Below, piece after piece: positions 38,528 to 60,777 of a stretch of 64,000 nucleotides of DNA; the stretch's first letter is position 1; the number at the start of each line of letters is the position of its first letter. Position numbers and translations under genes: made by a program. This DNA is from Candidatus Methanogranum gryphiswaldense (GTDB taxonomy: Archaea > Thermoplasmatota > Thermoplasmata > Methanomassiliicoccales > Methanomethylophilaceae): positions 617,093 to 681,092 of the forward strand of contig CP076745.1 of NCBI GenBank assembly GCA_019262145.1, in the 5' to 3' direction. The notes beneath the pieces were generated by a model. That model saw nothing but the letters and a program-made list of their open reading frames with translations, was not told where the DNA came from and made no database searches.

Positions 38528-39562
38528 ATGATGCTCAAATCGATAAAGGTGTACGGATTGTTCGATGAATACGATTACAGCGTTGATTTGAGTGATAACT
38601 ATGTAACATTCGTTCATTCTCAGAATGGATTCGGAAAATCCACGTTGATGAGACTTATATACAATGTGTTGAGCGGTGAGCTTGAAGAAGTTTTTGAAAC
38701 ACCTTTTGATAGATTGGACTTGGTGTTCGATGACGAAACGGTCCTCTTTGTGGAGAACAATAAGGATGATCTCCATATTCAGATACAAAGGAATGAGGTA
38801 GAGGAAGAACTCGCAGCCGAGGACCTAAAGAAGATCTTGAAGGTTACATATATGTCACCAGATAGGATGACCATCTCCAAGGACGGACATCTTGTGCCTG
38901 CATTGGATTATTATCTCGAATGCTTGGCGGTAAAGATGAAGGAAGCAGGAGAACATTGTCAACTGACCGATCAACCAAGAAAGCATAAGTCAGAATTATC
39001 AGACAGTGAACTGGAATTCTGGTGTAAGGACATGAAGGCCAAATTGGAGTTCATAAAGCAGGCTGGATTTGAGCCAGATATGCCACCAAGTTATAGGTTC
39101 CCCCCTTCAAGATTCGAGATCATGGAATATCGTGAGGATTATACTAATTTGGCATATTCTGTGAATGATTATGTGGAAAAATATCATTCGCTTGCAGAAT
39201 CGATAGTCGTATACATGGACATAGTGAACAGTATTTTTGTTAACAAGGTCATTTATGTAAATGAGACAGGGGCCCTCACAGCTAAGATGGACAATGGGAC
39301 CACTCTTCCGATATGCAAGCTCTCTTCCGGAGAGAAACAGATACTCGTCATATTCTATCGTCTTTTATTCGAGACAGATGTAGGGTCGCTTGCGATAATC
39401 GATGAACCGGAGATATCACTTCATATATCATGGCAACAGCAGATCGGAAAGATATTCATGGATGTTGCCAAGCTAAGAACATTGCACATAATAGTGGCGA
39501 CGCATTCGCCACAGATTATTCATGACAATTGGAATCTCGCTGTGGAACTGAAAGTGGAATAA
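38528..39562 (+). CDS. ABC/AAA-type ATPase, AriA-like (PARIS-like pair)
   Basis: This 344-residue SMC/ABC-type ATPase has Walker A HSQNGFGKSTLMRLIY (~30-45), ABC signature LSSGEKQ (265-271), Walker B LAIIDEPE (288-295) and H-loop VATHSPQ (323-329). A ~190-residue helical insert between P-loop and signature replaces a long coiled coil. The next gene overlaps by 1 nt and encodes a DUF4435/TOPRIM-like protein. This arrangement matches AriA-AriB of the PARIS anti-phage system and the wider OLD-like ATPase/TOPRIM group. A TATA-like TATGTATATC (38495-38504) lies ~26 bp before the ATG, so the mRNA may be leaderless. Naming it PARIS needs a profile search. Confidence 0.8.
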   Translation: MMLKSIKVYGLFDEYDYSVDLSDNYVTFVHSQNGFGKSTLMRLIYNVLSGELEEVFETPFDRLDLVFDDETVLFVENNKDDLHIQIQRNEVEEELAAEDLKKILKVTYMSPDRMTISKDGHLVPALDYYLECLAVKMKEAGEHCQLTDQPRKHKSELSDSELEFWCKDMKAKLEFIKQAGFEPDMPPSYRFPPSRFEIMEYREDYTNLAYSVNDYVEKYHSLAESIVVYMDIVNSIFVNKVIYVNETGALTAKMDNGTTLPICKLSSGEKQILVIFYRLLFETDVGSLAIIDEPEISLHISWQQQIGKIFMDVAKLRTLHIIVATHSPQIIHDNWNLAVELKVE

Positions 39563-40419
39563 TGATAGAGAATATGACCGCTTCGGATGTGGCCAATGAG
39601 ATCTCGATGTTGAGGTCCACATTCAAAGGTACTTTTGTTGTAGTTGAGGGCGTGACCGATAGTAGACTCTATGGTAAATTCATAAAGAAAGAAGATGTCA
39701 ATGTCGCCATAGCATATTCCAAGGAAAATGTCAGGCATTCTGTAATGGAGTGTAGGACCAACAGAGGAGATCTTAAGATAATCGGTATAGTGGATCCGGA
39801 TCTCGACCGTTTGAACGGATGGGAATACAGGGCTCCGATATTCACAACCGACCATCGTGACCTGGAAAGTATGATCCTTTGCACTCGAGCTTTGGACGAT
39901 CTTCTAATAGAGTACGCTGACGCCGGACAGTTGAAGAAATTTGAGGATAAATTCGGAGTCGTTAAGGATGTGATCGCAAAAGCTACTGCCCCGATCGGTA
40001 TGCTCATGTTCATATCGCAGCGGGATGGGCTCGGACTATGTTTTAAAGATCTGGATTACAGATATTTCATAAACAAGCGCACTCTTGAGAATGATTACTA
40101 CAAGATGATAGATGAAGTATTTTCCTTGTCAAGGTCTCCAAACATAAATAAAAAAGATGCTTTAGCAAAATTGATCAAGGATATGGATTCATTGGAGGAC
40201 CTATGGCTCGCCGTAAGGGGTCACGATGCGGTCGCAGTGTTAGCTATAGGACTTTCGGACGTATTCGGTTCCTATAATTGCAGTGGGATGAAATGCGGCC
40301 AGATCGGCGGATCGTTGAGATTGGCGTTTTCTTATGATTATTTTGCAGATACTGAATTGTACAAGGATACTTCAGAATGGAGCAAGAAGACACAGAATCC
40401 TCTTTGGCTCAATCGTTGA
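39562..40419 (+). CDS. DUF4435/TOPRIM-like protein, AriB-like
   Basis: This 285-residue protein has a TOPRIM-like core: VVVEGVTDSRLYGKF (~26-40) supplies the conserved Glu and IGIVDPDLDRLNG (~74-86) the DxD. This is the pattern of DUF4435 proteins such as AriB, an effector nuclease released by its ATPase partner in bacterial PARIS. I chose the ATG at 39562 (TAATG overlap with the ATPase) instead of 39529, which lies inside the ATPase gene. The C-terminal half has no recognised domain. It converges on xseB with an 11-bp overlap. Confidence 0.78.
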   Translation: MIENMTASDVANEISMLRSTFKGTFVVVEGVTDSRLYGKFIKKEDVNVAIAYSKENVRHSVMECRTNRGDLKIIGIVDPDLDRLNGWEYRAPIFTTDHRDLESMILCTRALDDLLIEYADAGQLKKFEDKFGVVKDVIAKATAPIGMLMFISQRDGLGLCFKDLDYRYFINKRTLENDYYKMIDEVFSLSRSPNINKKDALAKLIKDMDSLEDLWLAVRGHDAVAVLAIGLSDVFGSYNCSGMKCGQIGGSLRLAFSYDYFADTELYKDTSEWSKKTQNPLWLNR

Positions 40420-40642
40420 GTTCTAAGTTCTCTTTTACAATACCGTTTGCGGTTTCCATTATCTTTTGAACTTTGCGATCGCTGTCCTCGAGTATCTTCT
40501 TACAGTGTTCTCTTAATGCGATGGCCTCTTCGTATGTCTTGAGGCTTTCATCCAGGTCTAATCCGCCATTCTCGAGCTTTTTTACCATGTCTTCCAAGGC
40601 TGTAATGCTCTCTTCGAAACTCATATTCTCAACATTTGTCAT
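40409..40642 (-). CDS. xseB: Exodeoxyribonuclease VII small subunit
   Basis: This 77-residue helical XseB has the family pattern MSFEESITALEDMVKKLENG and LDLDESLKTYEEAIALREHC. It assembles with XseA into the ssDNA exonuclease ExoVII. Its ATG overlaps the end of xseA by 14 nt. ExoVII is mainly bacterial. Confidence 0.9.
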   Translation of the reverse strand: MTNVENMSFEESITALEDMVKKLENGGLDLDESLKTYEEAIALREHCKKILEDSDRKVQKIMETANGIVKENLELND

Positions 40643-41906
40643 TTGGTCTCACTTCTTTAATCTCTGCGTCTATGGATCCATCACGCATACGGACGATTAT
40701 GTTCTTTCCTTTTTTCACCGATCTTGTCGATGTTAGTGCTTTACCGTTCTCATCGGTCACCATGCTGTATCCTCTTCCGAGGACATTGTACGGATCCAGG
40801 GCCTCTAAACGGTTAGTGAGATTCTCCAAGGTCCTGATCCTTGAAGGTATCAGATTCTCAGGAACCTTTTCTAATCTCATCTCAGCAAAGGCATACCTTC
40901 TACGCATCATCTCCACAGTGTTTCTAAGCGCTCCAGCTAATCTTGTGGATATATGATCTAAGCGCATGCTCTTCATGGCTACCATCTCTTCTGCACGTTT
41001 CGGTGAGAGTTTGGAATCGACCTTGTTGAATCTGCTTCTCATTTTTTCTATCTTATAGCTGAGTGCCCGGTTGAGACGTACGGTATCGTTGTTGAGCTGA
41101 TTCATTATCTCGATCTTATCCCTAAGTGCTATTTCGGCAGCAGCGGTCGGAGTGGCAGCGCGTACATCCGCCACAAGGTCGGATAGAGTGAAGTCGGATT
41201 CATGACCGACAGCGGATATGGTAGGTACTTTAGAGGCTGCTATGGCCCTAACAGTCTTTTCTTCATTGAAGGCCCAAAGATCCTCCATCGAACCTCCTCC
41301 CCTTCCGACGATAATAACATCCACGCCGATCCGGTTAAGTAATTCTATACCCGCTGCTATCGACTGTGCGGCCCCTTCTCCTTGTACCTTTGCTGGTGCA
41401 AGAATTATATCGGCAGGGAATCTTCTTCCAGAGGTTGTGATTATATCGTGGATGACAGCTCCGGATTGAGATGTGACCACACCGATGACCTTGGGGTAGA
41501 TAGGAAGTTTTCTCTTTCTTTTTTGTTCGAAAAGTCCTTCGGCCTCCAATTTCCTTTTCAGTTTTTCAAGTTCTGCATAAAGGTTGCCGATCCCTCCGCG
41601 TTTCATGGTCTGGACCATGAATTGATAAGAGCCCCTTTCGACATAGATGTCGACACTTCCGTAAACAGCGACCTCCATGTTGTCAGTAGGTTCGAAATCG
41701 ATCCTTGCCTTTGCGGATTTGAACATAACGCAACGTATCTCGCTGCCGTTGTCCTTCAGAGTAAAATAACAATGGCCCGAGGAATAAAGTTTGAAATTGG
41801 AGATCTCACCTGTAACCCATACATCAGTTACACCGGGCGCATTGGTCATGACGTTCTTTACGCGCGTGTTCAGTTGCGTGACAGTTATGGTCTCTTCCAT
41901 CGACAT
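40629..41906 (-). CDS. xseA: Exodeoxyribonuclease VII large subunit
   Basis: This ~425-residue catalytic subunit has an N-terminal OB fold (VTGEISNFKLYSSGHCYFTL) and catalytic domain motifs VIGVVTSQSGAVIHDIITT, IIVGRGGGSMEDLWAFNEE and ISAVGHESDFTLSDLVAD, then a coiled-coil region and the C-terminal GRGYSMVTDENGKAL. I start at 41906 (MSMEETITV), since family N-termini begin just before the OB fold; a GTG at 41954 would add 16 residues and collide with the divergent thioesterase. It degrades single-stranded DNA ends. Its presence in an archaeon suggests transfer from bacteria. Confidence 0.92.
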   Translation of the reverse strand: MSMEETITVTQLNTRVKNVMTNAPGVTDVWVTGEISNFKLYSSGHCYFTLKDNGSEIRCVMFKSAKARIDFEPTDNMEVAVYGSVDIYVERGSYQFMVQTMKRGGIGNLYAELEKLKRKLEAEGLFEQKRKRKLPIYPKVIGVVTSQSGAVIHDIITTSGRRFPADIILAPAKVQGEGAAQSIAAGIELLNRIGVDVIIVGRGGGSMEDLWAFNEEKTVRAIAASKVPTISAVGHESDFTLSDLVADVRAATPTAAAEIALRDKIEIMNQLNNDTVRLNRALSYKIEKMRSRFNKVDSKLSPKRAEEMVAMKSMRLDHISTRLAGALRNTVEMMRRRYAFAEMRLEKVPENLIPSRIRTLENLTNRLEALDPYNVLGRGYSMVTDENGKALTSTRSVKKGKNIIVRMRDGSIDAEIKEVRPNDKC

Positions 41907-41974
41907 GCCATATGGCGCCCTTCGATTTATCGTTTGGCTAAAATATGAGGTCACGGATACAAGGGGATATGGAC

Positions 41975-42958: not shown

Positions 42959-43516
42959 TCAATATTTTCCTTTCTCCCTCATATGGAACATGAGATGGGT
43001 CGACATTTTTGCAAGGTCCTCTGCGCGTCTGTTCCTTCTTACTTTGGCAGGATCGTTCCTCATAATTCTGTGGTATGCTTTGCATATGGTCTCAGCTTCA
43101 TCGGCTGGTTCTTTACATTTGAGGCTGATAGGCATCCTGGATGAGATCGACGGCATTATCGTGGTCTGATAAGTGATGTCCCATGGTGCACAGATCATGT
43201 ACCGTCCGAATTCTTGTCTGATATCGTAACATGTGACGTTATGCCCTTTGATGATCTCGAGGATATCATTGGAGATCTTTTTCTCTGATCCTCCGGAATA
43301 TATGGTCTCAGGCGTCATTCTAAAGTGTTCGGAAAGATAGTCCAATTTCTTTTTTCCCAGATCCTTTGGATCATAGAATACAAGACCGCTGTATACGAGC
43401 TCGTAGTTCATATCATCAAGATCTGCTTTGCAGATAGCAATGTCTATTATTTCGTCATAAGGATAACCATTCGGACCCGTTGTGACTGCCTGAACAACAT
43501 AGACGTCGTCTGTCAT
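42959..43516 (-). CDS. Degenerate DEDD-exonuclease-fold protein
   Basis: This 185-residue protein is a paralogue of the intact DEDDh exonuclease at 53042-53686. YVVQAVTTGPNGYP aligns with YVLDTETTGLLGAP, DIAICKADLD with DIGICLVDLD, NVTCYDIRQEFGRYM with NVTAYNTGYDFNKFL, and NRRAEDLAKMSTHLM with NHRALSDAKMASHIM. In this copy the five catalytic positions (D, E, D, H, D) read Q, V, E, R, L. It is therefore probably a non-catalytic binding or regulatory protein. It converges with the zinc-ribbon gene. Role unknown. Confidence 0.7.
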   Translation of the reverse strand: MTDDVYVVQAVTTGPNGYPYDEIIDIAICKADLDDMNYELVYSGLVFYDPKDLGKKKLDYLSEHFRMTPETIYSGGSEKKISNDILEIIKGHNVTCYDIRQEFGRYMICAPWDITYQTTIMPSISSRMPISLKCKEPADEAETICKAYHRIMRNDPAKVRRNRRAEDLAKMSTHLMFHMREKGKY

Positions 43517-44901: not shown

Positions 44902-47568
44902 ATGAGAAAGGCCAAGAGCATTGATGAACTTTACGAGGAGGTCAAGGATTGTGACCTCGTTATCACCAATGACGCACCGCTGGCGACGGCTTTAAATGCA
45001 AGGGTGCAAAAGGCAAGAATAGGTAGTTTCGCATACACTCCTAGACAGATAGCAGGTAGAGATTCTGTTCGTGTTCTTGGAAGAGGCGTGATAGGGGATC
45101 TCAAGCTCATTTCAGCGATCGCTGATGAGACTGGCCTTGATTTTAAGTATATTCATGGTGAGTTGGAGAATATTCGCACCATTCGTAGATATAGGGCAAA
45201 TCCGGAGAATTATCTATATTCTAAATCGGCAAAGGAGGTCTATCGTTCATTCAATGCATTGCCTACAGTGGAGAAGGTCATGTCCAATTACGATCCTTCA
45301 CACAGTGAATTCTATACGGGAAGAAATAACATTGCTATTATCGGTTTGGATCTCTTCGACGATCTGGATAAGCATTTCATTCCTTTGGAGTTCAAAGATG
45401 TCGATATGTTCGAGGATGGTGATTATGATATCGAAAAGATCCATCAGATAGGTAACGATCGCCAGATAGCGGACAATATTGTGGAATTGATTACTATTGA
45501 AATGGTCGAGGACACTGCCATCGTATTGGATACTGAAGGTCCGGTCGCCGATGCCATAAGGGCAGCGTTGTACAGAAGGGGATTACCATTCAAGAACACT
45601 ATGGCCGTAAGAGACCTTTCTCAAATAAGGGATTTCATACAGTTCGTCTCATTGGCATTGAGTTATGAGACATTAAGGGTCAAACACATAAGGGAGATAT
45701 TTTCCAATTATGGAGGATATGTAAAGTCCAAACAGGATGAATATCTTCTCTCAAAAAACGTTCAGAACATAAAGAATGATGTTGCTTTGAAATTGGTCGA
45801 CATAATGAAGAACATACGCTCGATGACATTCGGCGAAGTGATGAATGCCATTGTACATCCTGTTCAAAGGCCGCAAGTGAAGATATTGTTGGATGAAATG
45901 ATCATGACCGAAAAAAAGGTCACAACCAAATTGGTCAATCAAATTGTTTATGCTGTAAACAATGTATCGGATCTGCATCACAATGAACAGATTCCAGCTG
46001 AGGAGAAGAAAGGAGTCTTGCTTGTGAATTGCAATAATTCCGTCTATATAGACAGGCCGTTCATTATCTTTGTAGGAATCGGGCCGGAATGGTCACTCAA
46101 TATAATTGGTAAAGAATATATTGACAGGGAAGCCGAGTCTGAAAAGGATCTTCTTAGATTTTCTTCGTTAATACAACAAGGCACTTCAAGAATATACGCA
46201 GTTAATTACATGAGAGGGGGAAAACCAGCAAAACCATGTGGTTCTTTTGAACAGATATATCGCGATAGGGTCATAGAGAGTTTCAAAGATGTTTGCAGTA
46301 AAGAGGGTGGGTTGATACAAGGGCCATGGTATATTGTCAAGGAGACGGAATTCTCTGAGAAAGGGGAAGACCCTGTAGACCGTATTCCAGTGTATGACTG
46401 GAAATTCTCAAAAAGTACTTACAATCTATTCCGTCAGTGTCCGCGCGCATACATGTTCGGTGAGATGATGAAGACCCCGGATTCCGAATATACGGTCTTT
46501 GGCAGTATAATTCACGAATTCGCAGAGCTCTATGTATGTTATCCTGAGATGGTCAAGGAGAAAGGTCTGGAATATTATCTGGATCTTATACAGGAAAGAT
46601 ATTCCGGGATATCTTGCGAGCAGATGGTGAGGATCGACAGAACCGATATGTGTGCAAGCATGATGAATGTCATGCGTTATTTGGACAAGGCAGCTCCAAA
46701 GAATATTATATTGGATCGTAAGAATTCTGATCGTAAATATCCAAACGAACTCATGGTCATGGAAGATTGCGATCTTTATTGTAGTGCAACAGAGACAGAA
46801 TTCAGATCATCCATTAATCCTTTGTTTGGTAATTTCGATCTGATAAGCGGTACCACAATTACAGATTACAAAACAGGCAAGTCTTGTGAATTGAGAGAAA
46901 TAAGGGACAAAATGGCTCTTCCAAAGGATCATCCGGAATTCCAACCGATGATATATCTTGCATTGTTGCATCAATCCACGGGTAGACTCCCATGCAGGTT
47001 CAATCAATTCTACGTAAAGGATAGGTTGAAGGATTCAATACTGGATGAGAATTTCGACGTTATGTTGAATGTAAGGGTTATTGAATTCATTGATATGACA
47101 TTCGATGAATACATACACAGTTCTGATTGTTCTTTGAAGGAGGAATTCACATCCAAATCCAACGAGAAATTCCTTCAAGCATGGGATGCATTCATCGATA
47201 CATTATCTGAGTATGGATGGAAAACCAGAGAGGACTGGGACAACAACTTGTCTCTGAAGAACTCTGTTATGAATGCAGTAGGGATGAGGTCAACCGATTC
47301 AAATCTAAAGGCAGTCGCGACTGCGATAAGAAAGGTCGTTAAGAATACAATAGGGAATATGTTCTGCAATGATGATAAATTGATAATACCCAGAGATACA
47401 GTTTTAGAATTTTTGGATAGAGTAGATTCGGATCATCTTGCCGCATCGTTGATGACCATATCGAAATTCCCTGCAGATCCGTGTAAGGATTGTTCAAATT
47501 GTAATTTTGCTAAAGTATGTACCATGTTAGTTGCAAAGGCCGATGAGGGAGAGGATGTTGATGAATGA
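44902..47568 (+). CDS. AddB-like nuclease subunit with Fe-S cysteines
   Basis: This 888-residue protein has a C-terminal RecB-like PD-(D/E)XK nuclease. STYNLFRQCPRAYMFGE, FGSIIHEFAELY, GNFDLISG and ITDYKTGKSC give the Q-x-C, H/E, D and D-Y-K elements. The C-terminal CKDCSNCNFAKVC contains CX2CX5C, which with the Cys in RQCPRAY matches the 4Fe-4S staple of AddB. The N-terminal part lacks a Walker A and corresponds to an inactive helicase-like domain. The following helicase gene overlaps by 8 nt. The family places it in double-strand-break resection, rare in archaea, which mostly use HerA-NurA. Confidence 0.82.
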   Translation: MRKAKSIDELYEEVKDCDLVITNDAPLATALNARVQKARIGSFAYTPRQIAGRDSVRVLGRGVIGDLKLISAIADETGLDFKYIHGELENIRTIRRYRANPENYLYSKSAKEVYRSFNALPTVEKVMSNYDPSHSEFYTGRNNIAIIGLDLFDDLDKHFIPLEFKDVDMFEDGDYDIEKIHQIGNDRQIADNIVELITIEMVEDTAIVLDTEGPVADAIRAALYRRGLPFKNTMAVRDLSQIRDFIQFVSLALSYETLRVKHIREIFSNYGGYVKSKQDEYLLSKNVQNIKNDVALKLVDIMKNIRSMTFGEVMNAIVHPVQRPQVKILLDEMIMTEKKVTTKLVNQIVYAVNNVSDLHHNEQIPAEEKKGVLLVNCNNSVYIDRPFIIFVGIGPEWSLNIIGKEYIDREAESEKDLLRFSSLIQQGTSRIYAVNYMRGGKPAKPCGSFEQIYRDRVIESFKDVCSKEGGLIQGPWYIVKETEFSEKGEDPVDRIPVYDWKFSKSTYNLFRQCPRAYMFGEMMKTPDSEYTVFGSIIHEFAELYVCYPEMVKEKGLEYYLDLIQERYSGISCEQMVRIDRTDMCASMMNVMRYLDKAAPKNIILDRKNSDRKYPNELMVMEDCDLYCSATETEFRSSINPLFGNFDLISGTTITDYKTGKSCELREIRDKMALPKDHPEFQPMIYLALLHQSTGRLPCRFNQFYVKDRLKDSILDENFDVMLNVRVIEFIDMTFDEYIHSSDCSLKEEFTSKSNEKFLQAWDAFIDTLSEYGWKTREDWDNNLSLKNSVMNAVGMRSTDSNLKAVATAIRKVVKNTIGNMFCNDDKLIIPRDTVLEFLDRVDSDHLAASLMTISKFPADPCKDCSNCNFAKVCTMLVAKADEGEDVDE

Positions 47569-50440
47569 ACTCAACGAGTCCCAGACGAAGATAGCAAACC
47601 AGTTGGACGGCATGATAGTAGTAGATGCAGGCCCAGGTACTGGGAAGACCAAGACCATCGTGGAACGTTACATAAACATCTTAGACAGCGGAGTTGACCC
47701 CAAGGACATAATCCTTCTTACATTCACCCGTAATGCAGCTCAAGAGATGGAAGACAGAATAAAGGGCAAGATGATCCATTCCCATAATGCAAATAAATGT
47801 AAAGATGTAAGAGCTGGAACATTTGATTCATTCTGTTTTTCTGTAGTTATGGAATCTCCTGAAGCGGTTAGTAGATTTTTTGGTATTTCCGAGAAATTGA
47901 CGAGAAGTGCAAAGACAGTAGAGAATGAAACTTTGAATAGAGTGTATTTTGACGATTTTATGGATCGTTTCTTATCTGGTAGAAGCGACGATTACGGCGA
48001 TAGTTCTACAATAGCCAGTCAACATTATTCTGAACTTTACGGCATAATAAACAAATTAATGGCCAGGGGTGTTGTCCCGATCAGAGAAGGATGGTTCGGA
48101 GGAGATAGCGGTACAGTACTCTATGGCGATTTTGACAATATGCAATCAATATTGAACAAATTGAACATGGAAGTAAACAAAGACAAGTATGAGTTGTCAA
48201 CTTATATGCTGAGAGATACAGAAAAATATTCTTTTATGTTTCAGAAGCCAATTGAGACAGAACCTTTGTCTGAGGATATGATTGATGCTGCGATCAAGGA
48301 TGATCGTGTTTCTTTGATAAAACTCCTACACGACGTCTATTATGAATTCCTAAGACGTTCGATCATAGACGACAGATTGACATTCGGTCTGGTATCTTCT
48401 TTTGCTTTCGTGGTATTGTATTCAGATGATAAGACAAGAGAGAGAATGCGTTGCAGATATCTGATGGTAGATGAATTTCAAGATACCAACAGCAATCAAT
48501 TCATGATCGCGTTGATGCTTTTGAAAGAACCGAATCTATGTGTCGTAGGTGATTGGAAACAAGGGATATACGGATTCAGATACGTTTCTACAGAGAACAT
48601 CACAAGATTCTACGATAAAGGTGTAAAATTGAGAAAGTTCTTGAATGAGGATAAGGAGCGCATTCCTTTTTCGATCGAAGAACGCGATCCCATGTCATTG
48701 GATATAAATTACAGAAGTTCTCAGTTGATAATAGATCTTGCATATGATTCCCTATACATTCGCGGCAACAAAGATGAGAAGGTAGTGGTTGAAAATATCA
48801 CAAGGATCACAGCAGCAAAAAAATATCTGGACGAACACACGGCAATAGAATGTGTCAGCGCTCCATCTTCTGATGAAGAGATACAAGAGGTCCTGAGAAG
48901 GATCGAGAATTATGTGAACAATGACAGATATATGATCTGTGAGGATGAGGTTACTTTTCGCAGGGTCCAATACAAAGACATAGCCGTTCTTTGCAGAGCC
49001 ACGTCACTCGCATGTGCCATATATGAAAAAGCATCGAAGGCTGGAATACCTGTATTTCTCCAAGGTGATGTTGATATAATGGGCTCAAGAGAGGGAAAGT
49101 TATTGCTCGCTTGGCTCAGATACATCAATAACGACAGTGATCCCTGGGGCATATGTACGATATTGGCTGATCAAGGCCACCCTCTCTGTGAGATAAAAGA
49201 GATGACGCATCTAGGTTCATCCGTTGTGATACCTGCAGAGATAATACAGAAAAGACGTGAATTGATAACGAAAAAGCGCAGAGTAACAAATATGATCGCA
49301 TCAATATTTGATTACTATAATCTAAATAATGATATTACTCAGACGATAACTTCTGTACTTTCATCTGCTCACAGGGGATCACTGTTGACGATATCGGATA
49401 TAATCCGTATGATAGAGACAGATATCGATAGCGGAACAACTTATTCAGTCGATTCTTTTTTGAATAGACAGGCAGTGATAATACAAACCATGCACAAGTC
49501 CAAGGGTCTCGAGTATCCAGTGGTCATAGCTGCGGGATTTAATCAAAGATCATTCCCAAACACAAGAAGTGATATTTCAGAATACTTTTTCAACGATACA
49601 GTTGGGATAAGAAGTAGAAGCGAAGTGTGTCCAATAACAGAAGGCACTGCCAACATAATGCAATCATGGAAAACCAAGCTTATAATGAAGACATTATCCA
49701 AGGATTATAGCGAAGAGAGAAGACTTTTGTTCGTCGCAATATCAAGGGCAAAGCAATATTTGACCATAACCGCTGCGTCCAAACCTTCCACTTTCTTCAA
49801 TGGACTTTTAGAAAAGTCAACTGGGTCACCGTGTGGAAAAAACAAGGTCTTTTGCACATCCAATGAGGAATCCGATATAATGATCGAAAGGCCCAAGATC
49901 GATGAGTTCAAGAAACGCAGGAGGAATGTGGGCGTTCACGACATACTTCATTTTGAAGGTGATGATGCACCTCCTGAGGGTTCGGATCAGGTATGTGGTA
50001 AAGGAATGGAATATGGCAAGAAGGTCCATTATGCGGCAGAGCTTCTCGCCAGAGGCCTAAATCTTGATACAGAGTATTCTCAATTTCCAGAGAATATTGA
50101 GATCAAAAAGGTATTGCATTCTGTAAAGGATGCTGTTTATATCGAACCAGAGATAGAGTGTGCACTTCCCTTCAATGACATCAATGTGACTCTCAGAGGC
50201 GTCATAGACCTATATGCTGAATTCTCTGATAGGGTCGAGATACATGATTACAAGACGGACGTATCGGATCAGTTCGAAGGGGAATATAAGATACAACTCA
50301 GTGTATATGCACATGCGGCACATGAGGCAACAGGTAAAAGGACCGTATGTGTCATAGATTATGTCTCACAAGGGCGTAAAGTAGTGTTCGATCCGTTGGA
50401 AAAGGAATGCATAAGAAAGCGTTTGGCAGATTACTCATAA
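47561..50440 (+). CDS. AddA-like UvrD-family helicase-nuclease
   Basis: This 959-residue superfamily 1 helicase has motif I DAGPGTGKTKTI (~22-33), Ia ILLTFTRNAAQEME, II LMVDEFQDTNSNQF, III VVGDWKQGIYGFR, IV LDINYRSSQLI, V TMHKSKGLEYPVV and VI LLFVAISRAKQYL. The C-terminal nuclease has GKKVHYAAELLARGL, LRGVIDLYAEF and IHDYKTDVSD with QLSVYAHAA. This is the AddA domain order. The ATG at 47561 follows GAGGGAGAGG and overlaps the AddB-like gene. Together they should form an ATP-dependent dsDNA exonuclease. Confidence 0.87.
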   Translation: MNELNESQTKIANQLDGMIVVDAGPGTGKTKTIVERYINILDSGVDPKDIILLTFTRNAAQEMEDRIKGKMIHSHNANKCKDVRAGTFDSFCFSVVMESPEAVSRFFGISEKLTRSAKTVENETLNRVYFDDFMDRFLSGRSDDYGDSSTIASQHYSELYGIINKLMARGVVPIREGWFGGDSGTVLYGDFDNMQSILNKLNMEVNKDKYELSTYMLRDTEKYSFMFQKPIETEPLSEDMIDAAIKDDRVSLIKLLHDVYYEFLRRSIIDDRLTFGLVSSFAFVVLYSDDKTRERMRCRYLMVDEFQDTNSNQFMIALMLLKEPNLCVVGDWKQGIYGFRYVSTENITRFYDKGVKLRKFLNEDKERIPFSIEERDPMSLDINYRSSQLIIDLAYDSLYIRGNKDEKVVVENITRITAAKKYLDEHTAIECVSAPSSDEEIQEVLRRIENYVNNDRYMICEDEVTFRRVQYKDIAVLCRATSLACAIYEKASKAGIPVFLQGDVDIMGSREGKLLLAWLRYINNDSDPWGICTILADQGHPLCEIKEMTHLGSSVVIPAEIIQKRRELITKKRRVTNMIASIFDYYNLNNDITQTITSVLSSAHRGSLLTISDIIRMIETDIDSGTTYSVDSFLNRQAVIIQTMHKSKGLEYPVVIAAGFNQRSFPNTRSDISEYFFNDTVGIRSRSEVCPITEGTANIMQSWKTKLIMKTLSKDYSEERRLLFVAISRAKQYLTITAASKPSTFFNGLLEKSTGSPCGKNKVFCTSNEESDIMIERPKIDEFKKRRRNVGVHDILHFEGDDAPPEGSDQVCGKGMEYGKKVHYAAELLARGLNLDTEYSQFPENIEIKKVLHSVKDAVYIEPEIECALPFNDINVTLRGVIDLYAEFSDRVEIHDYKTDVSDQFEGEYKIQLSVYAHAAHEATGKRTVCVIDYVSQGRKVVFDPLEKECIRKRLADYS

Positions 50441-50450
50441 ATAATCGAAA

Positions 50451-53063
50451 GTGATGCATAGCTTGATGCCGCCCGATGGACTTACTGACAAGGAAGTGAA
50501 AGACAGAGAGAACATTGGTAAGGTCAATTCTTTCGAATCACCGGTGAGCAGGAGTTACATCGACATAGTTTTCAAGAATTTTTTTACATCTTTCAATCTG
50601 ATATTGTTGATTCTTGGCGTAGCCCTGATATACTTTCAGGAATACATAAATGCAGTAGCGGCGACTGGTGTCATACTGATAAATGTCCTGATATCCACTA
50701 TACAGGAAATGAAGGCCAAGAGGAGATTGGATAAGATCGCTTTGCTTCTCAGGCCTACTGTTAAGGTTGTCAGAAACGGCACAGAGATGAACGTCGACCC
50801 ATCCAAGATAGTGATGGACGACGTCATCAGAATGGAATCCGGAGATCAAGCACAGGTGGACGGAGTCATATTGGAATGTCGTTCGTTCGAGATGGACGAG
50901 TCATTACTTACCGGGGAGTCGAGTACGCGTAGGAAGCACGAGGGGGACACCATATATTCCGGTGCCTACTGTGTGACGGGAGAATGTTATTACAAGGTCA
51001 CCGCACTTGGAGAGGACACATTTGCATCAAAGATGCTATCCAGTGCTAAGAAGTTCGAGAAGAAGAAGACCCCCCTCCAGAGAGAGACGGCCACTGTCAC
51101 TGAGATGTTGATGATAATCGCGTTCATATATCTCGCATTGATGGTAATAATCAATATCATTTCAGGTAAGCACGCTGTGGATTCATTGATCCAATCCGTT
51201 ATAATATTGGATATAGTTCCAATTGCTTTGTTCCTGTTGATAACAATAACTTACATGATAGCTGCGGTTCGTATGGCTGATAGCGGTGTTTTGCTTCAGA
51301 ATTCGAGTTCCGTTGAGTCGATGAGTCATGTAGATACGGTGTGTATGGACAAGACCGGGACCATCACTACCAACAATCTGGTCTTTGAAGGTGCAGACTA
51401 TTTCATCGACCAAGATGAGGCCAAGAACATCATAAGGGCATTTGTTTCTGTTACGGGTAGTAAGAATCATACTATAAAGGCCATAGAAAAGGAGTATGGT
51501 AAGGTCGAGGCAGAGCTCATAGATGAGATACAATTCTCATCAGAGAGGAAGTTCAGTGCGGTAAGGGTAAGGACATCCACCGGAGAATATTCTCTTGTAT
51601 TAGGGGCTTACCCAATGCTCACATCCAGGATAGAATCTGACATTGATATAGGCGAAATGGTGTCCCAGCTTTCAAAAAAGGGACTAAGGACGGTTTTGCT
51701 GTGCAAGGCAAAGATTTTGGAACTTTACGAAAATGAAGTGCCAGCAATGTCAAGTTTGGAACCTGTTGCATTGATATATATCAGAGATGAGATAAGGCCA
51801 GATTGCAGAGAGATAATAGGTAAATTCATCGATAACGGAATGGATCTGAAAGTAATTTCTGGTGATGACCCAGAGACCGTGAATGCATTGTTCTCACAGG
51901 CCAATATTCCAGGCGATAGAAACATCATATCTGGAGAACAGTTGGATGCGTTACAGGGTGATGAGAAGAGAGACGCAGTCCTAAGGACCAATATATTTGG
52001 ACGCATGAAGCCGGACCAAAAGAGTGAGGTCATACAGATATTGAAGGATAATGGCAGATACGTCGCCATGGTTGGTGACGGTGTAAATGATGTGAAATCA
52101 ATTAAGATGGCACATGTGGGTGTAGCACTACAGAGTGGGTCTGGAGCTACAAGGGGTGTCGCAGATATGGTCCTCATCGAAGATCGTTTCGAAGCTCTTC
52201 CCAAGGCCATAATAGAAGGCAAAAGGACAGTGACTGGAATGCGCGATATCCTGAGACTGTACCTTACCAGGAATTTCGTACTTGCAATATTGGTTGGTGT
52301 TCTTTTGCTCATTTTCCACAAATTGCCCTTACTACCAATACAAAATACATATTACGCTCTTGTAACGGTGTCGTTGGCTGCCTTTTTGATGATAATATGG
52401 GCCAAGCCTTCTGATAATAAGGAAATGATATTGCCAGGAGTCTTAAGGTTCAGTATACCGATGGCAGTTTCGATCGCTATGTTCGGACTTGTGATCTATG
52501 CGATATTCATGATCGGGATATCGAATGGTTGGTTCCCCGACATAAATCTTACAGAAACATGGAATGCATATCATGCTCTTTTCCCAGATTCGACATATAG
52601 TGAGTTCTTGGACCATATGTCAGGGTACAAAGATACTCCTGACACATTGAGCACGCTTGCTGAGGTTACGGCAAGGAATGCGATGCTGTTCTTTATTGTG
52701 ATAGCAGGCATATTGCAACTTTTCCTGATCTATCCTGTATTTGGATTCATGAACCGTGACGGAAAGTCAAACAGACAGATACTCCCGATATTACTTGCCT
52801 TCCTCTTACTCGGCATCGTTGTGATCTTTTACAATCTTCCAGCTGTATCAGTCGGATTGGCATCAATAATGTATTTCCCAATACAGTACTATCTAGCATT
52901 TGTTGGTTTTACGGCAGTATGGTTTGTTATTGCAATAATTATGAACCGTAGTAAACACAACTCATACATGGTCAAGATGACAGAAAAGTCATTTAATAGG
53001 CAACTTCAGAAGGAGATAGAAAAAGAGAATAAGAAAAAAGGTCAAGATGATGAAAAACATTGA
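50451..53063 (+). CDS. Cation-transporting P-type ATPase
   Basis: This 870-residue P-type ATPase has the A-domain SLLTGESSTRR, the phosphorylation motif VCMDKTGTIT (~298-307), NKMKPDQKS-like FGRMKPDQKSEVI and hinge VGDGVNDVKSIKMAHVGVAL. About ten membrane helices flank these domains. It lacks N-terminal heavy-metal-binding domains and the CPx motif, so a Ca/Mg/K-type substrate, as in the bacterial CtpE-like group, is more likely than copper or zinc. The start is GTG (50451) or the ATG at the next codon. It starts 10 nt after the AddA-like gene and converges with the DEDDh exonuclease (22-bp overlap). Confidence 0.9.
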   Translation: MMHSLMPPDGLTDKEVKDRENIGKVNSFESPVSRSYIDIVFKNFFTSFNLILLILGVALIYFQEYINAVAATGVILINVLISTIQEMKAKRRLDKIALLLRPTVKVVRNGTEMNVDPSKIVMDDVIRMESGDQAQVDGVILECRSFEMDESLLTGESSTRRKHEGDTIYSGAYCVTGECYYKVTALGEDTFASKMLSSAKKFEKKKTPLQRETATVTEMLMIIAFIYLALMVIINIISGKHAVDSLIQSVIILDIVPIALFLLITITYMIAAVRMADSGVLLQNSSSVESMSHVDTVCMDKTGTITTNNLVFEGADYFIDQDEAKNIIRAFVSVTGSKNHTIKAIEKEYGKVEAELIDEIQFSSERKFSAVRVRTSTGEYSLVLGAYPMLTSRIESDIDIGEMVSQLSKKGLRTVLLCKAKILELYENEVPAMSSLEPVALIYIRDEIRPDCREIIGKFIDNGMDLKVISGDDPETVNALFSQANIPGDRNIISGEQLDALQGDEKRDAVLRTNIFGRMKPDQKSEVIQILKDNGRYVAMVGDGVNDVKSIKMAHVGVALQSGSGATRGVADMVLIEDRFEALPKAIIEGKRTVTGMRDILRLYLTRNFVLAILVGVLLLIFHKLPLLPIQNTYYALVTVSLAAFLMIIWAKPSDNKEMILPGVLRFSIPMAVSIAMFGLVIYAIFMIGISNGWFPDINLTETWNAYHALFPDSTYSEFLDHMSGYKDTPDTLSTLAEVTARNAMLFFIVIAGILQLFLIYPVFGFMNRDGKSNRQILPILLAFLLLGIVVIFYNLPAVSVGLASIMYFPIQYYLAFVGFTAVWFVIAIIMNRSKHNSYMVKMTEKSFNRQLQKEIEKENKKKGQDDEKH

Positions 53064-53686
53064 TCTTTTTTGTAGGGATAATCTCCGTTCTTATGCATTT
53101 CTATCATGATATGTGATGCCATTTTTGCGTCAGATAATGCACGATGATTTTGCTTTCCGTTTATTCCTGCAGGATCTTCGTCTTTGAGTATCATCTTGTA
53201 AGCGTTGTCAAGTTTTGGCCATCTGTAATCATCAAAATAGTTCATCGATTTTAATTTGCAGACATATGTGGCGGCAAGCATGATATCTTGATATTGATTG
53301 AATGTGCCTCTTAGATTCCATGGTTCCCGGAATAGGAATTTGTTAAAATCATAACCTGTATTGTATGCGGTCACATTCTTTTTCAACAAGATCGATCTGA
53401 CATCATTCAGTACATCAGTGAAAGGAAGACCTTCTTTGACAGCATCCAAGGTCATATCTGTATTTTGGAATATCCAAGCATTCTTTCTGTAATCGTTCCA
53501 AGAATCTACATCATGACCTACTACAGCGGAATAGACCTCTTTCACAGTTTCATGGTCTAGGTCCACCAGGCATATCCCAATGTCCACCACAACGTCCTCC
53601 GGAGCCCCTAAAAGTCCCGTCGTTTCCGTGTCTAATACGTATACCACATTATCGGGGGTTTCATCAAATGAGAAAAGGTTACTCAT
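53042..53686 (-). CDS. DEDDh 3'-5' exonuclease
   Basis: This 214-residue exonuclease has Exo I YVLDTETTGLLG, Exo II AYNTGYDFNKFL and Exo III NHRALSDAKMAS, so all five D-E-D-H-D residues are present. It belongs to the RNase T/DnaQ-epsilon superfamily; the substrate (DNA or RNA) is unknown. It overlaps the upstream secreted-protein gene by 4 nt (ATGA) and the convergent P-type ATPase by 22 bp. A paralogue with all catalytic residues replaced lies at 42959-43516. Confidence 0.85.
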   Translation of the reverse strand: MSNLFSFDETPDNVVYVLDTETTGLLGAPEDVVVDIGICLVDLDHETVKEVYSAVVGHDVDSWNDYRKNAWIFQNTDMTLDAVKEGLPFTDVLNDVRSILLKKNVTAYNTGYDFNKFLFREPWNLRGTFNQYQDIMLAATYVCKLKSMNYFDDYRWPKLDNAYKMILKDEDPAGINGKQNHRALSDAKMASHIMIEMHKNGDYPYKKDQCFSSS

Positions 53687-57373: not shown

Positions 57374-58564
57374 GTGGCCACTTTTAAATTCGTTCACTGC
57401 GCCGATCTGCATTTGGGCAGCAGGGCATACGGCATTTCAGGAAAAGATCCTGAATTGGGAAAAAGGATGACAGAAGCTGTTTTCAAGTCTTTTTCCAAGA
57501 TAATAGACCACGCGCTCTTGGAAAAGGCAGATTTCATGGTGATCTCCGGAGATATATTCGATGAGACCACCGAAACGCCAGCTACGCGTTATAGATTTTC
57601 TAAAGAACTTTCAAGAATTAGCATCCCTGTCTTCATATGTCTCGGTAATCATGATTACGTCATGTCTTGGACCGAGAGCATACCATATCCAGATAATGTT
57701 CACGTGTTCGGTAAGGAACCTGAAAGTATTTTTATCGAGGTCGGAGGAGGCAATGTAGAGATCGTCGGAAGGAGTTTCCCTTCTGTTCATTCTTCATTCG
57801 ACCCTGTTCAGGACATAAAAGGAAAAGAAGGGGTATTTTCAGTAGCGGTGATACATTGTAGTGTTGACGCTGTAACAATGGATAACGATTATGGCCCGTG
57901 TAAACTTGCTGACATGTACAACAAAGGTATTGATTATTGGGCCCTGGGACACATTCATAAGAGGGTCGAATTGTCAAAGGACCCATGCATCGTTTATTCC
58001 GGTAACATTCAAGGGAGGAACAGGAGAGAGACCGGTCCAAAGGGTGCCTACCTAGTAAGTGTATCGGACGATCATATGGTCGGTCTTGAGTTCTTCGCGA
58101 CCCAGGATGTAATATGGGAAAATATAGAATCAGACATCACTGGAAAAGACATAAACGGTCTTATGAATACGATATCTTCTACAGTAAAAAAAGGCTCTAT
58201 AATCAATCTTACAATAAACGGACACGGTCCTTTAGACAGCATTTTACGTCTGGGCACAGAGGGACTTATAGATCAGATAGAGAACATTACAGGATGCAGG
58301 GTTGCGGACCTTCGTATCAATACATATCCGCTTTTGGAAAGAAACGATCTTTTGCAGGGCGCAGACCTTAGGGCCAAGATAATAAGGTCCTCGGATAAGA
58401 TGAGTCTTTTGGATAGGGACCAGCTCATCAATTTAATATGTTCCACTAAGCAGTCCGCGTCTATCAGATATATGTTAGAATGGCTCGAGGATGATGAGTT
58501 AAAGGCACTAGTTCGTGATGCAGAGACCCTTTTGATAGAAAAATTGACGGAGGGATCAAGATGA
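57374..58564 (+). CDS. SbcD/Mre11/YhaO-like metallophosphoesterase
   Basis: This 396-residue calcineurin-like phosphoesterase has VHCADLHLGSRAYG, ISGDIFDE, CLGNHDYV, VIHCSVD and ALGHIHKR, i.e. all five metal motifs of the SbcD/Mre11 group. The partner gene overlaps it by 4 nt (ATGA). The partner contains membrane helices, so this pair matches YhaO-YhaN rather than canonical Mre11-Rad50. The start is GTG; the nearby ATG is out of frame. Likely DNA-end processing, possibly at the membrane. Confidence 0.88.
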   Translation: MATFKFVHCADLHLGSRAYGISGKDPELGKRMTEAVFKSFSKIIDHALLEKADFMVISGDIFDETTETPATRYRFSKELSRISIPVFICLGNHDYVMSWTESIPYPDNVHVFGKEPESIFIEVGGGNVEIVGRSFPSVHSSFDPVQDIKGKEGVFSVAVIHCSVDAVTMDNDYGPCKLADMYNKGIDYWALGHIHKRVELSKDPCIVYSGNIQGRNRRETGPKGAYLVSVSDDHMVGLEFFATQDVIWENIESDITGKDINGLMNTISSTVKKGSIINLTINGHGPLDSILRLGTEGLIDQIENITGCRVADLRINTYPLLERNDLLQGADLRAKIIRSSDKMSLLDRDQLINLICSTKQSASIRYMLEWLEDDELKALVRDAETLLIEKLTEGSR

Positions 58565-60777
58565 AGGTTCTTTCATTGAGAATAAGATCTTTTGGTGAGT
58601 TGAGGGAAAGGAAAATCGACTTTGACGATGAACTTACGGTCATATATGGTAAGAATGAGACAGGGAAGACATCCTTCATGGAATTCATAAGAGGGACGTT
58701 GTTTCCTGACAATCAGAGAAATCATTATCCTGAATATAGGACCACAGACTCGGGAGAACTTGATTTTGAGATCGCTTCCGGAGATAAGTTCACGATAACA
58801 CGTGAAGGCAAAAAGGCGAGATCTGAAAAGATGCCCTCCGATATCGTCCATATGGATTCTTCGCTTTACAGGTCGTTGTTCGCAATGTCGCCTGAGGACC
58901 TTAGAGATTCCAAGGTCATTACTTCCGGGGAGATCAAGAATCGTTTCTTGACAGTTCCAGGCGGAGAGTCTCTCCCGAAGGTCATCGAGGATATAGAGTC
59001 CGAGATGAAGGATATAATGAGTGTTGATAGGAAATCCTCTTCTACAAAGGTAGCCAGATTGTTTTCTGACATAGAGAACAACGATATGGCTGTAAAAAGG
59101 TCCAAGGAATTGGATGGATCGTATGGTGAAAAGAGCAATGAAAGGAACGAACTCCAAAAGATATCAGAGGATTTGAAGGAGAAGAAGAAAGAATCTGATG
59201 TCGCGGTAGCATCATACAGTATCCAAAGATCTCAATCTGCAAATCTGGTCAAATTGGATGAGCTTAAAAAGAAAAAGGATACGATTTCAGCTTCGGCGGA
59301 AATAACCGACAGCGATAAGACAAAATATGAAGAGCTAAAGGTCAATCTGGCCAATATAAAGCGTGAGACGGAAGATGCACGTTCCGTTGTGAATGAATTT
59401 CAAGATTCCACAGATGGGATAGATCCGAAGATATTACTCGTACATCGTACTACGATCGAGGATCTGAAGCACAAAGAACAGCTATATGTACAATTATCAC
59501 GTCAAAGAAAAGAATTTCAAGACAATGAGAACAATGCGATCAAAGAGATAAATAATGAGCCCGTCAAAAGGGAGATGGTACAGAAGAGTAGGCCGAGTGT
59601 CGGTTTGATCGCCTTAGGGGCGATGGTGTTTGTTGCAACGGTTTTCATTGGATTACTATCCAACATCTTGGTATCTGTAGTCGGTGCCGCAGTTTTTGTC
59701 GCATGCATCATCATAGCGTTCAAGAAAGGTCAAAGGCGCGAAAGTAGTGTTTCAAGTGATAAGACGGTCGATTCCAGGCAGGTAGAATATTGGCACGGTA
59801 AGGTCCAAGAGCTCGATGGAAATATATCGAGTATTGAAAAGGACCTTGACATATTGGCAAAGAGGACAGGGCTTGCAAGATCATCGTTCATGATCGACGT
59901 TGATCGTTTGTATAATGCATTGGGAAATGCTTTGAAGATAAGTGATGCGGAAACAGTCAGAGATAAGTTGGATGTCTTGGAGAGCAGGGCGCAATCCGAT
60001 CTTAATCTATTCTTATCCAGGTTTGGTTCAGAACAGAGATTTAAGGATCTCTGTGAAATGAAAAAGGAATATGACAGCATATGCTATCAGATAGATACGC
60101 TTGAAAAAAGCATCGAATCATCCGGATATTTTAATGGAGCACAGGTAATCGAACTTCCTGATACGGAAGGAATTCAGGAAAAGATGAATGAGGTTCAGAG
60201 GAAAATAGGGGATATTGACAGACAGCTCAGGTCGATGCGTGAAGATGATGAAATGGAGCGGCTGTTGGATATGCGCACACTCCTAACTACAGAACTTTAC
60301 AATACAGTGAAGAGATGGGCGGTCCTGTCATTGGCATCTTCAATGATAGAGGATGCCTGCAACACGATATATTCCGACATTCAGCCAGGTGTGATAACCA
60401 CGGCTGACCACCTGGTAAGGACAATGACATGTGAGAGGTATGGTCTGGAGATGGACATTCGTACCAATGAGGTAAGAGTAAGGTCCGGAGACACAGGTAA
60501 GAAAGAGAAGGAATGGAGTACAGGTCTTGGCGATCAAGTGTATCTGGCAATAAAATTGGCAATCGCCAAGGAGATGTCAGGAAGTGAGACACTTCCAATC
60601 TTACTCGATGATGTGTTGCAGATGTTCGATTCTGAAAGGAAGAAAAACGCGTGCAAATCACTTGTAGAACTTTCAAAGGATATGCAGATAATATTGTTCA
60701 CATGCGATGCGGAGACACTGTCGATGATGAGGTCTATCGATGCTTGTAAGGTGATAGAGTTGGCTAATATTGAATAA
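58561..60777 (+). CDS. SbcC/Rad50/YhaN-like ATPase with transmembrane hairpin
   Basis: This 738-residue ATPase has an N-terminal ABC half (VIYGKNETGKTSFMEFIRG) and a C-terminal half with signature-like WSTGLGDQVYLAIKLAIAKE and Walker B PILLDDVLQMFD. Coiled-coil segments lie between (for example DLKEKKKESDVA). In the middle (~345-390) are two hydrophobic helices, VGLIALGAMVFVATVFIGLL and VVGAAVFVACIIIAF, and no CxxC zinc hook. This organisation is typical of YhaN, which pairs with YhaO. The ATG overlaps the yhaO-like stop. Probable role: membrane-linked DNA or signalling complex, function not established. Confidence 0.85.
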   Translation: MKVLSLRIRSFGELRERKIDFDDELTVIYGKNETGKTSFMEFIRGTLFPDNQRNHYPEYRTTDSGELDFEIASGDKFTITREGKKARSEKMPSDIVHMDSSLYRSLFAMSPEDLRDSKVITSGEIKNRFLTVPGGESLPKVIEDIESEMKDIMSVDRKSSSTKVARLFSDIENNDMAVKRSKELDGSYGEKSNERNELQKISEDLKEKKKESDVAVASYSIQRSQSANLVKLDELKKKKDTISASAEITDSDKTKYEELKVNLANIKRETEDARSVVNEFQDSTDGIDPKILLVHRTTIEDLKHKEQLYVQLSRQRKEFQDNENNAIKEINNEPVKREMVQKSRPSVGLIALGAMVFVATVFIGLLSNILVSVVGAAVFVACIIIAFKKGQRRESSVSSDKTVDSRQVEYWHGKVQELDGNISSIEKDLDILAKRTGLARSSFMIDVDRLYNALGNALKISDAETVRDKLDVLESRAQSDLNLFLSRFGSEQRFKDLCEMKKEYDSICYQIDTLEKSIESSGYFNGAQVIELPDTEGIQEKMNEVQRKIGDIDRQLRSMREDDEMERLLDMRTLLTTELYNTVKRWAVLSLASSMIEDACNTIYSDIQPGVITTADHLVRTMTCERYGLEMDIRTNEVRVRSGDTGKKEKEWSTGLGDQVYLAIKLAIAKEMSGSETLPILLDDVLQMFDSERKKNACKSLVELSKDMQIILFTCDAETLSMMRSIDACKVIELANIE

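Follow-up and report, generated by a model that had tools for sequence, protein, structure and literature searches.

A two-gene helicase-nuclease of AddAB type is encoded at positions 44902–50440 of the window, a 64,000-nucleotide stretch (positions 617,093 to 681,092 of contig CP076745.1) from the archaeon Candidatus Methanogranum gryphiswaldense. The pairing of the genes, their motifs and invariant residues, the predicted folds, the co-inheritance and fixed locus of the pair, and the absence of orthologues of HerA, Mre11 and Rad50 from the same family of gut-type methanogenic archaea were all observed. On this basis we consider it probable (about 0.74) that the pair is an ATP-dependent AddAB-type helicase-nuclease and the family's main machine for processing DNA ends, in place of HerA-Mre11-Rad50.

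The gene pair and its predicted structures

The window is part of a complete single-contig genome (1,516,968 bases, 99.93% complete). The two genes and their parts are as follows, with lengths in amino acids (aa), open reading frames as ORFs and model confidence as the predicted local distance difference test (pLDDT).

44902–47568, plus strand: AddB-like subunit, 888 aa (ORF; PF12705; model pLDDT 88.2; best Foldseek match AddB 3u44_B)
44902–46335, plus strand: AddB N-terminal half, aa 1–478, a putatively inactivated superfamily 1 (SF1) helicase-like region with no Walker A (UvrD fold match)
46405–47520, plus strand: AddB PD-(D/E)XK nuclease with four-cysteine Fe-S staple, aa 502–873 (PF12705 and conserved residues)
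47531–50440, plus strand: AddA-like subunit, about 960 aa (ORF; Pfam and NCBIfam matches; model pLDDT 88.4; best Foldseek match AddA 4cej_A)
47627–47650, plus strand: AddA Walker A (AGPGTGKT), invariant in 50 rows
48470–48487, plus strand: AddA Walker B/motif II (DEFQDT), invariant in 50 rows
50027–50308, plus strand: AddA PD-(D/E)XK core, H824, D884, D897, K899, Q913 and Y917 in AddA alignment numbering (conserved residues)

Neither gene is interrupted by stop codons. The two ORFs overlap, and alignment with relatives indicates that AddA probably starts at the ATG at 47561, overlapping the AddB stop. Pfam detects PF12705 in both proteins (E 9.5e-12 at aa 502–873 of AddB; E 5.5e-7 in AddA), and AddA also has the UvrD N-terminal (1.1e-43) and C-terminal (4.9e-32) domains. 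Conservation was assessed in alignments of 56 AddB and 50 AddA rows, with a residue check in 38 AddA/AddB pairs. Residues C513, H538, D646, D655, K657, Q681 and Y685 of AddB are invariant across the 56 rows, and C864, C867 and C873 are present in at least 90%. In the 26 rows from the window's family and the sister family f4, the four Fe-S cysteines (C513, C864, C867 and C873) are kept without exception, as are the nuclease residues H538, E542, D646, D655, K657, Q681 and Y685. The catalytic residues of both subunits are retained in 38/38 pairs, and the AddA nuclease residues, like its Walker A and DEFQDT motifs, do not vary across the 50 rows.

None of the 56 AddB rows has an N-terminal Walker A motif, the only match being an unrelated one at residue 816. 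For contrast, Listeria AddB carries GRSGTGKT at residue 8; the archaeal protein is not blurred at this motif, its N-terminus beginning at about the place just past it. The N-terminal half matches UvrD-type helicases in predicted fold but has no Walker A, and we therefore interpret it as a catalytically dead helicase. A preliminary description of this DNA had placed an AddAB-like pair at these coordinates, with a nuclease in each subunit, an intact AddA helicase, and an AddB with an Fe-S staple and no Walker A, and each of these points is borne out by the ORFs, domains and alignments above.

The predicted folds agree with an AddAB-like architecture in both subunits. The AlphaFold2 model of AddB gave B. 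subtilis AddB (3u44_B, E 3.2e-14) as its first Foldseek match, and the top match by VIA was again AddB (3u4q_B, Z 18.5, 6.6 Å over 698 residues). VIA rows within 1 Z are tied, and for AddB the ties include UvrD (2is4_A against residues 2–474, Z 17.9, 4.4 Å over 324 residues) and AdnA (Z 17.8), while RecC (8b1t_C, Z 12.3) lies far below AddB. The fold of the nuclease half is similar to that of ACE1/Cas4 (Z 14.9, 220 residues). For the AddA model, Foldseek ranked AddA first (4cej_A, E 3.2e-39) and RecB second. Less in line with AddAB, the highest VIA Z scores of this model are to single UvrD/PcrA helicases, but these cover only 455–567 aligned residues, and AddA, at lower Z, covers 813–831.

Some relatives depart from this plan in length or reading frame. 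In two loci (L077 and L079) the AddA frame runs on into a long C-terminal extension, reaching 1300 and 1451 aa. An in-frame TAG occurs at one common AddA position (window residue about 418–420) in four distinct genomes (L046/L097, L047, L073 and L110), and other relatives have single TAGs elsewhere in AddA or AddB; these presumably fit the decoding of TAG as pyrrolysine in this archaeal group.

Distribution of AddAB and of the archaeal resection genes

The order was sampled as 61 genomes, 37 from the window's family and 24 from sister families. AddA is present in all 37 and AddB in 36, the sole miss being G014, a 78% complete genome whose AddA abuts the end of a 5-kb contig. Only one sister-family genome, G039 of family f4, has both genes. 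Across a phylum sample of 292 genomes, AddB was found in 27, of which two come from f33, a distant family, and 25 from the window's family, for which 26 genomes were listed. A scan of genome contigs gave 68 loci, all from this archaeal group by title except for one bin labelled Bacteroidales, which is probably mis-binned. Named relatives within the family, which we take to be GTDB's Methanomethylophilaceae, include Candidatus Methanoplasma, Methanomethylophilus and further Methanomethylophilaceae/Methanomassiliicoccaceae. The pair is a fixed trait of the whole family and not an oddity of a single genome. In one member (G035, locus L048) there is a second, unlinked and divergent AddAB copy that lacks the conserved neighbours and has two in-frame TAGs in AddA. 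A viral origin was also considered: none of 26 candidate stretches in viral contigs was confirmed, and phage records gave none. A search of titles and abstracts in the open-licence PMC literature found no paper on an AddAB-type pair in Methanomassiliicoccales or haloarchaea.

PMC12977600 and PMC9960219 assign end resection to AddAB/RecBCD-type enzymes in bacteria and to HerA-NurA together with Mre11-Rad50 in archaea. When sister-family proteins were used as queries, Mre11 orthologues (E 1e-89 or better) were found in 22/24 sister genomes, Rad50 orthologues (E 1e-142 or better) in 21/24 and HerA orthologues in 22/24 (one partial), with at least one of the three in 23/24; all three were absent from the 37 genomes of the window's family. 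In the sister genomes the genes are clustered, in one case (L184) in the order HerA, Na/H exchanger, Mre11, Rad50. The suggestion in the preliminary description that the archaeon's repair set would prove unusual is thus upheld. Its proposed search for herA-nurA was informative for one partner: HerA is missing from this genome and its family, whereas NurA (Pfam) gave one weak match in the 61 genomes and does not discriminate between the family and its sisters. NurA is missing nearly order-wide, so its absence says nothing special about the window genome.

Presence of AddAB and absence of HerA, Mre11 and Rad50 coincide in the family, and we infer that resection in the family falls mainly to the pair, as a substitute for the archaeal set that was lost. 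The AddAB-type pair may have taken over from HerA-Mre11-Rad50, or may let the cell do without that set. Several observations weigh against this reading, those on kinship and plasmid neighbours being given with the alternatives below. Genome G039 holds HerA, Mre11, Rad50 and AddAB together, and G050, a 98% complete genome of sister family f6, has neither AddAB nor orthologues of the three. The coincidence is one evolutionary case, not 37: gain and loss lie on one branch, so that the correlation speaks for replacement without proving it. Non-orthologous proteins of the Mre11 and Rad50 superfamilies in the family could also be able to resect.

Relationship to bacterial AddAB

The NCBIfam models for AddA (TIGR02785) and AddB (TIGR02773) are Gram-positive equivalogs. 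The best NCBIfam model for the AddA-like protein is addA_Gpos, at 166 bits against a cut-off of 707.65, with pcrA a close second (157), and pcrA outscores the AddA model in the haloarchaeal, f4 and f33 rows (one row of each scanned). TIGR02773 has no match at the AddB gene; its score in the window's genome, 12.5 bits, falls inside the AddA gene. By hhalign, the archaeal AddB family aligns with Listeria AddB over 29 columns (E 0.018) and with E. coli RecC over 67 columns (E 0.46), both amounting to nothing. The AddA family aligns over 885 columns, nuclease included, with Listeria AddA (E 8.6e-35), over 831 columns with E. coli RecB (E 9.6e-30) and over 557 columns with UvrD (E 9.2e-35). In a 21-row tree that included two bacterial references (AddA and RecB, both long-branched) and four UvrD/Rep/PcrA-type helicases, 13 archaeal AddA rows grouped in a single clade (100/99) that excluded both AddA+RecB and UvrD/Rep/PcrA.

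These results are the ground for an explanation by convergence, in which a PcrA/UvrD-like helicase was fused to a nuclease within the archaea and paired with a dead copy, with no descent from bacterial AddAB. The separate clade, the preference of several rows for pcrA and the lack of detectable sequence kinship between the archaeal AddB and either AddB or RecC all favour it. Against it, whole-chain Foldseek ranks AddA and AddB first, the hhalign match to Listeria AddA extends through the nuclease at an E value close to that of the shorter UvrD match, and the four-cysteine nuclease is common to archaeal and bacterial AddB, with few bacterial references compared. Convergence appears to us rather unlikely. 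Since both proteins fall below the AddAB family cut-offs and bacterial AddB is not recognised, we name the pair AddAB-type and regard it as a separate archaeal branch, which its sequence does not tie to the bacterial AddAB family. The earlier label of AddAB-like therefore holds for architecture and fold rather than for family membership by sequence, while the divergence that had been suggested is evident from the scores and from the phylogeny.

Conserved locus and haloarchaeal plasmid relatives

The neighbours of the pair in the window are listed here.

38528–40419, plus strand: AAA ATPase and DUF4435 protein, resembling AriA and AriB of PARIS, an anti-phage system (PADLOC 6.7e-28 and 3.9e-13)
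40629–41954, minus strand: XseA, the large subunit of exonuclease VII; conserved neighbour (TIGR00237, 474 bits; cut-off 180)
42959–43516, minus strand: exonuclease-like gene with no Pfam match, synteny kept; with 53042–53686 it flanks the pair
50451–53063, plus strand: P-type cation ATPase, the next gene, conserved neighbour (domain match; synteny)
53042–53686, minus strand: DEDDh-type exonuclease-like protein, conserved neighbour (PF00929, 5.1e-6)

Frequencies are given over loci with sequence long enough on the relevant side. In all 62 loci that continue for 300 bases or more past AddB, it is followed by AddA in the same orientation, and the P-type ATPase follows AddA in 42 of the 45 with at least 1.5 kb downstream. 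On the upstream side, 27 of the 47 loci that extend 3.5 kb or more have XseA, and 22 of the family's 43 that reach 5.9 kb have AriA-AriB, a defence-type pair kept near a RecBCD-type nuclease. The gene order recurs among genera at 33–62% AddB identity, and the AddA and AddB trees (the latter a quick one) have 28/35 splits in common. This fixed order across divergent genera, together with the common splits, identifies the pair as an old, vertically kept chromosomal unit in the family and not an island. Farther downstream, a tandem Arg/Glu/Ser-rich repeat with RPERSNDRTERTERPERSERSE-type units was noticed at about 61900–62420 (plus strand), inside ORF 61072–62997, which we take to be DnaG-like.

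Outside Thermoplasmatota, relatives turned up on haloarchaeal plasmids alone. AddB was detected in 33 of 72,556 plasmid records, and every organism named is haloarchaeal. AddA gave 33 records at E up to 1e-20 and 336 at E up to 1e-5, of which still only 33 had at least 80% cover; the remaining matches, judged from 60 rows sampled over the ranking, are to the helicase domain only, with at most 57% cover. In 11 plasmid pairs and in that of f33, neither nuclease has lost any of the catalytic residues checked, and the Walker motifs are intact. The complete four-cysteine set, present in 26/26 rows of the window's family and f4, is found in 0/12 of these rows, suggesting, so far as sequence can tell, that the Fe-S staple is dispensable in the haloarchaeal branch. 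Helicase position R341 (window numbering) is Q in all 12. Genes annotated on these plasmids as 'PD-(D/E)XK nuclease' and 'ATP-dependent DNA helicase' thus hold an AddAB-like branch that is unnamed in the family libraries used.

Two haloarchaeal plasmids (L232, 1–4846; L233, 1–4867) carry a second, three-gene set specifying a UvrD-type helicase, a small PD-(D/E)XK nuclease (317 aa) and a 1138-aa helicase with a C-terminal PD-(D/E)XK domain. The helicase of this set falls outside the archaeal AddA clade, and the set may represent an AddAB whose AddB is divided between two genes. One further record, PLSDB NZ_CP030101.1, is a 2.9-Mb Listeria sequence labelled as a plasmid, with addA, addB and a PcrA-like helicase; by its size and content it is a chromosome.

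Gene neighbourhoods were examined in 11 of the 33 plasmid regions, and include Orc1/Cdc6, ParA and integrases. Restriction-modification, methyltransferase or BREX-type genes lie nearby in 6/11, which fits a defence role equally well. The existence of this plasmid branch suggests that AddAB-type pairs also serve as accessory plasmid DNA-end nucleases, possibly defensive. Defence could likewise be the chief task of the window's pair: a RecBCD-like nuclease that breaks down foreign linear DNA would have been acquired from plasmids and retained, with recombination left to other enzymes. The plasmid-borne relatives, their neighbours and the PARIS-like genes upstream of about half the family's loci all speak for this. 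Against it, defence islands are patchy, and within the family the pair is near universal, occupies a single locus, is inherited vertically and lies beside XseA and exonuclease genes; its PADLOC matches are limited to common helicase or nuclease domains. We regard a primary role in defence as distinctly unlikely.

Weak matches to HerA, Mre11 and Rad50

The apparent absence of the archaeal set could reflect failed detection, with fast-evolving orthologues remaining in the family. Mre11 searches gave matches in 14/37 of its genomes at only E 6.3e-16 to 8.7e-9, and 10/37 have a different HerA-domain ATPase (E 1e-10 to 1e-18). Two such superfamily genes lie in the window.

57374–58564, plus strand: phosphoesterase of the Mre11 superfamily, non-orthologous to the sister Mre11 (best NCBIfam Mre11 model 62 bits, cut-off 600; E 7.5e-10 to sister Mre11)
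58561–60777, plus strand: Rad50/SMC-superfamily ATPase with a hydrophobic, membrane-like stretch (no match to sister Rad50 at E 1e-12)

We take this pair to resemble B. subtilis YhaO/YhaN. Several further genomes of the family have AAA_23 matches, in ORFs of about 600–850 aa, no more than about 10 kb from AddAB. The sister orthologues are recognised at far stronger scores than any of these weak matches, which belong to other subfamilies, some of them also present in sister genomes beside the true HerA, and the complete single-contig genome of the window has none of the three. Failed detection is accordingly very unlikely.

The pair as Cas4, Gabija or another known defence module is largely refuted, as the matches are to common domains only (GajB 1.1e-37, RTasHel 1.1e-43, TIGR00372 for Cas4 at 21.3 bits against a cut-off of 65, and the ACE1/Cas4 fold noted above), no GajA or reverse transcriptase adjoins it, no cas genes were found among the flanking proteins scanned, the partner is a helicase-like PD-(D/E)XK protein, and the whole-chain best matches are to AddAB. 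The preliminary description would have been refuted had profile searches assigned the pair to an unrelated family such as Cas4-like modules; the searches gave no such assignment.

Proposed mechanism and Chi recognition

The fold and arrangement of the archaeal pair fit the known AddAB mechanism, as generally established and as covered in PMC4824097. In the proposed mechanism, the two proteins would form an active complex in which AddA is the only ATP-driven motor, of the SF1A type, pulling in and unwinding duplex DNA from a free end, with its C-terminal nuclease cutting one strand. AddB, as a catalytically dead helicase fold, would scan or guide the other strand to its own Fe-S-stapled nuclease.

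According to PMC4824097, the Chi site and an ionic latch of the B. subtilis enzyme lie in the AddB helicase-like domain, and the mutants F68A and F210A recognise Chi poorly. Archaeal AddB has a conserved T-P pair (T46 invariant in the 56 rows, P47 in at least 90%). B. subtilis F68 presumably falls at the stretch FSFSRLAW of Listeria AddB. If the T-P pair sits at this stretch, a placement made by the order of elements and not by residue-level alignment, the pocket would differ and Chi recognition would be altered or absent. Any Chi-like control would then use a pocket unlike the bacterial one, or none, as we infer. A search for over-represented, skewed 6-, 7- and 8-mers in 464 of 1,517 kb (the first 400 kb of the genome plus the window) gave no Chi candidate, which is weak evidence; with GC skew included, the top z was 4.8, with weak skew.

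A wider proposal is that the family exchanged HerA-Mre11-Rad50 for an AddAB-type machine that feeds the archaeal recombinase RadA and either has its own Chi pocket or lacks Chi control, drawn from a broader archaeal branch that includes the haloarchaeal plasmids. We offer this tentatively, with the odds somewhat against it. G039, which holds both sets, may preserve an intermediate stage. Such an exchange, if true, would be a natural replacement of the step that opens recombinational repair, and would make testable how DNA is handed over from a bacterial-type resection machine to an archaeal recombinase, and whether Chi control is dispensable or can be rebuilt.

Comparison with known systems

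Like bacterial AddAB (B. subtilis, PDB 3u44 and 4cej), the archaeal pair consists of two adjoining genes, with one active SF1A motor bearing a C-terminal nuclease and a helicase-like subunit with an Fe-S nuclease, and AddAB is the best Foldseek match for both. It differs in its smaller proteins (888 and about 960 aa, against about 1160 and 1230), in an AddB that has no Walker A and cannot be aligned by sequence, and in scores below the family cut-offs for both subunits. RecBCD shares the RecB-like architecture of AddA and a dead helicase partner that resembles RecC in role, but the archaeal partner keeps its nuclease residues and Fe-S cysteines, and no third subunit adjoins the pair. The mycobacterial AdnAB also has two helicase-nuclease subunits, and AdnA is among the best AddB matches; AdnAB has motor domains and Walker A in both subunits, and identity with it was rejected on the missing Walker A of the archaeal AddB-like subunit. 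The haloarchaeal plasmid pairs, annotated as a PD-(D/E)XK nuclease and an ATP-dependent DNA helicase, have the same gene order and catalytic residues, but are plasmid-borne and only about 25% (AddB) and 31% (AddA) identical. Finally, the archaeal HerA-NurA with Mre11-Rad50, the system for which the sections of PMC12977600 and PMC9960219 concerned describe DNA end resection, is proposed to do the same job with unrelated proteins, and its HerA, Mre11 and Rad50 orthologues are those missing from the family that carries AddAB.

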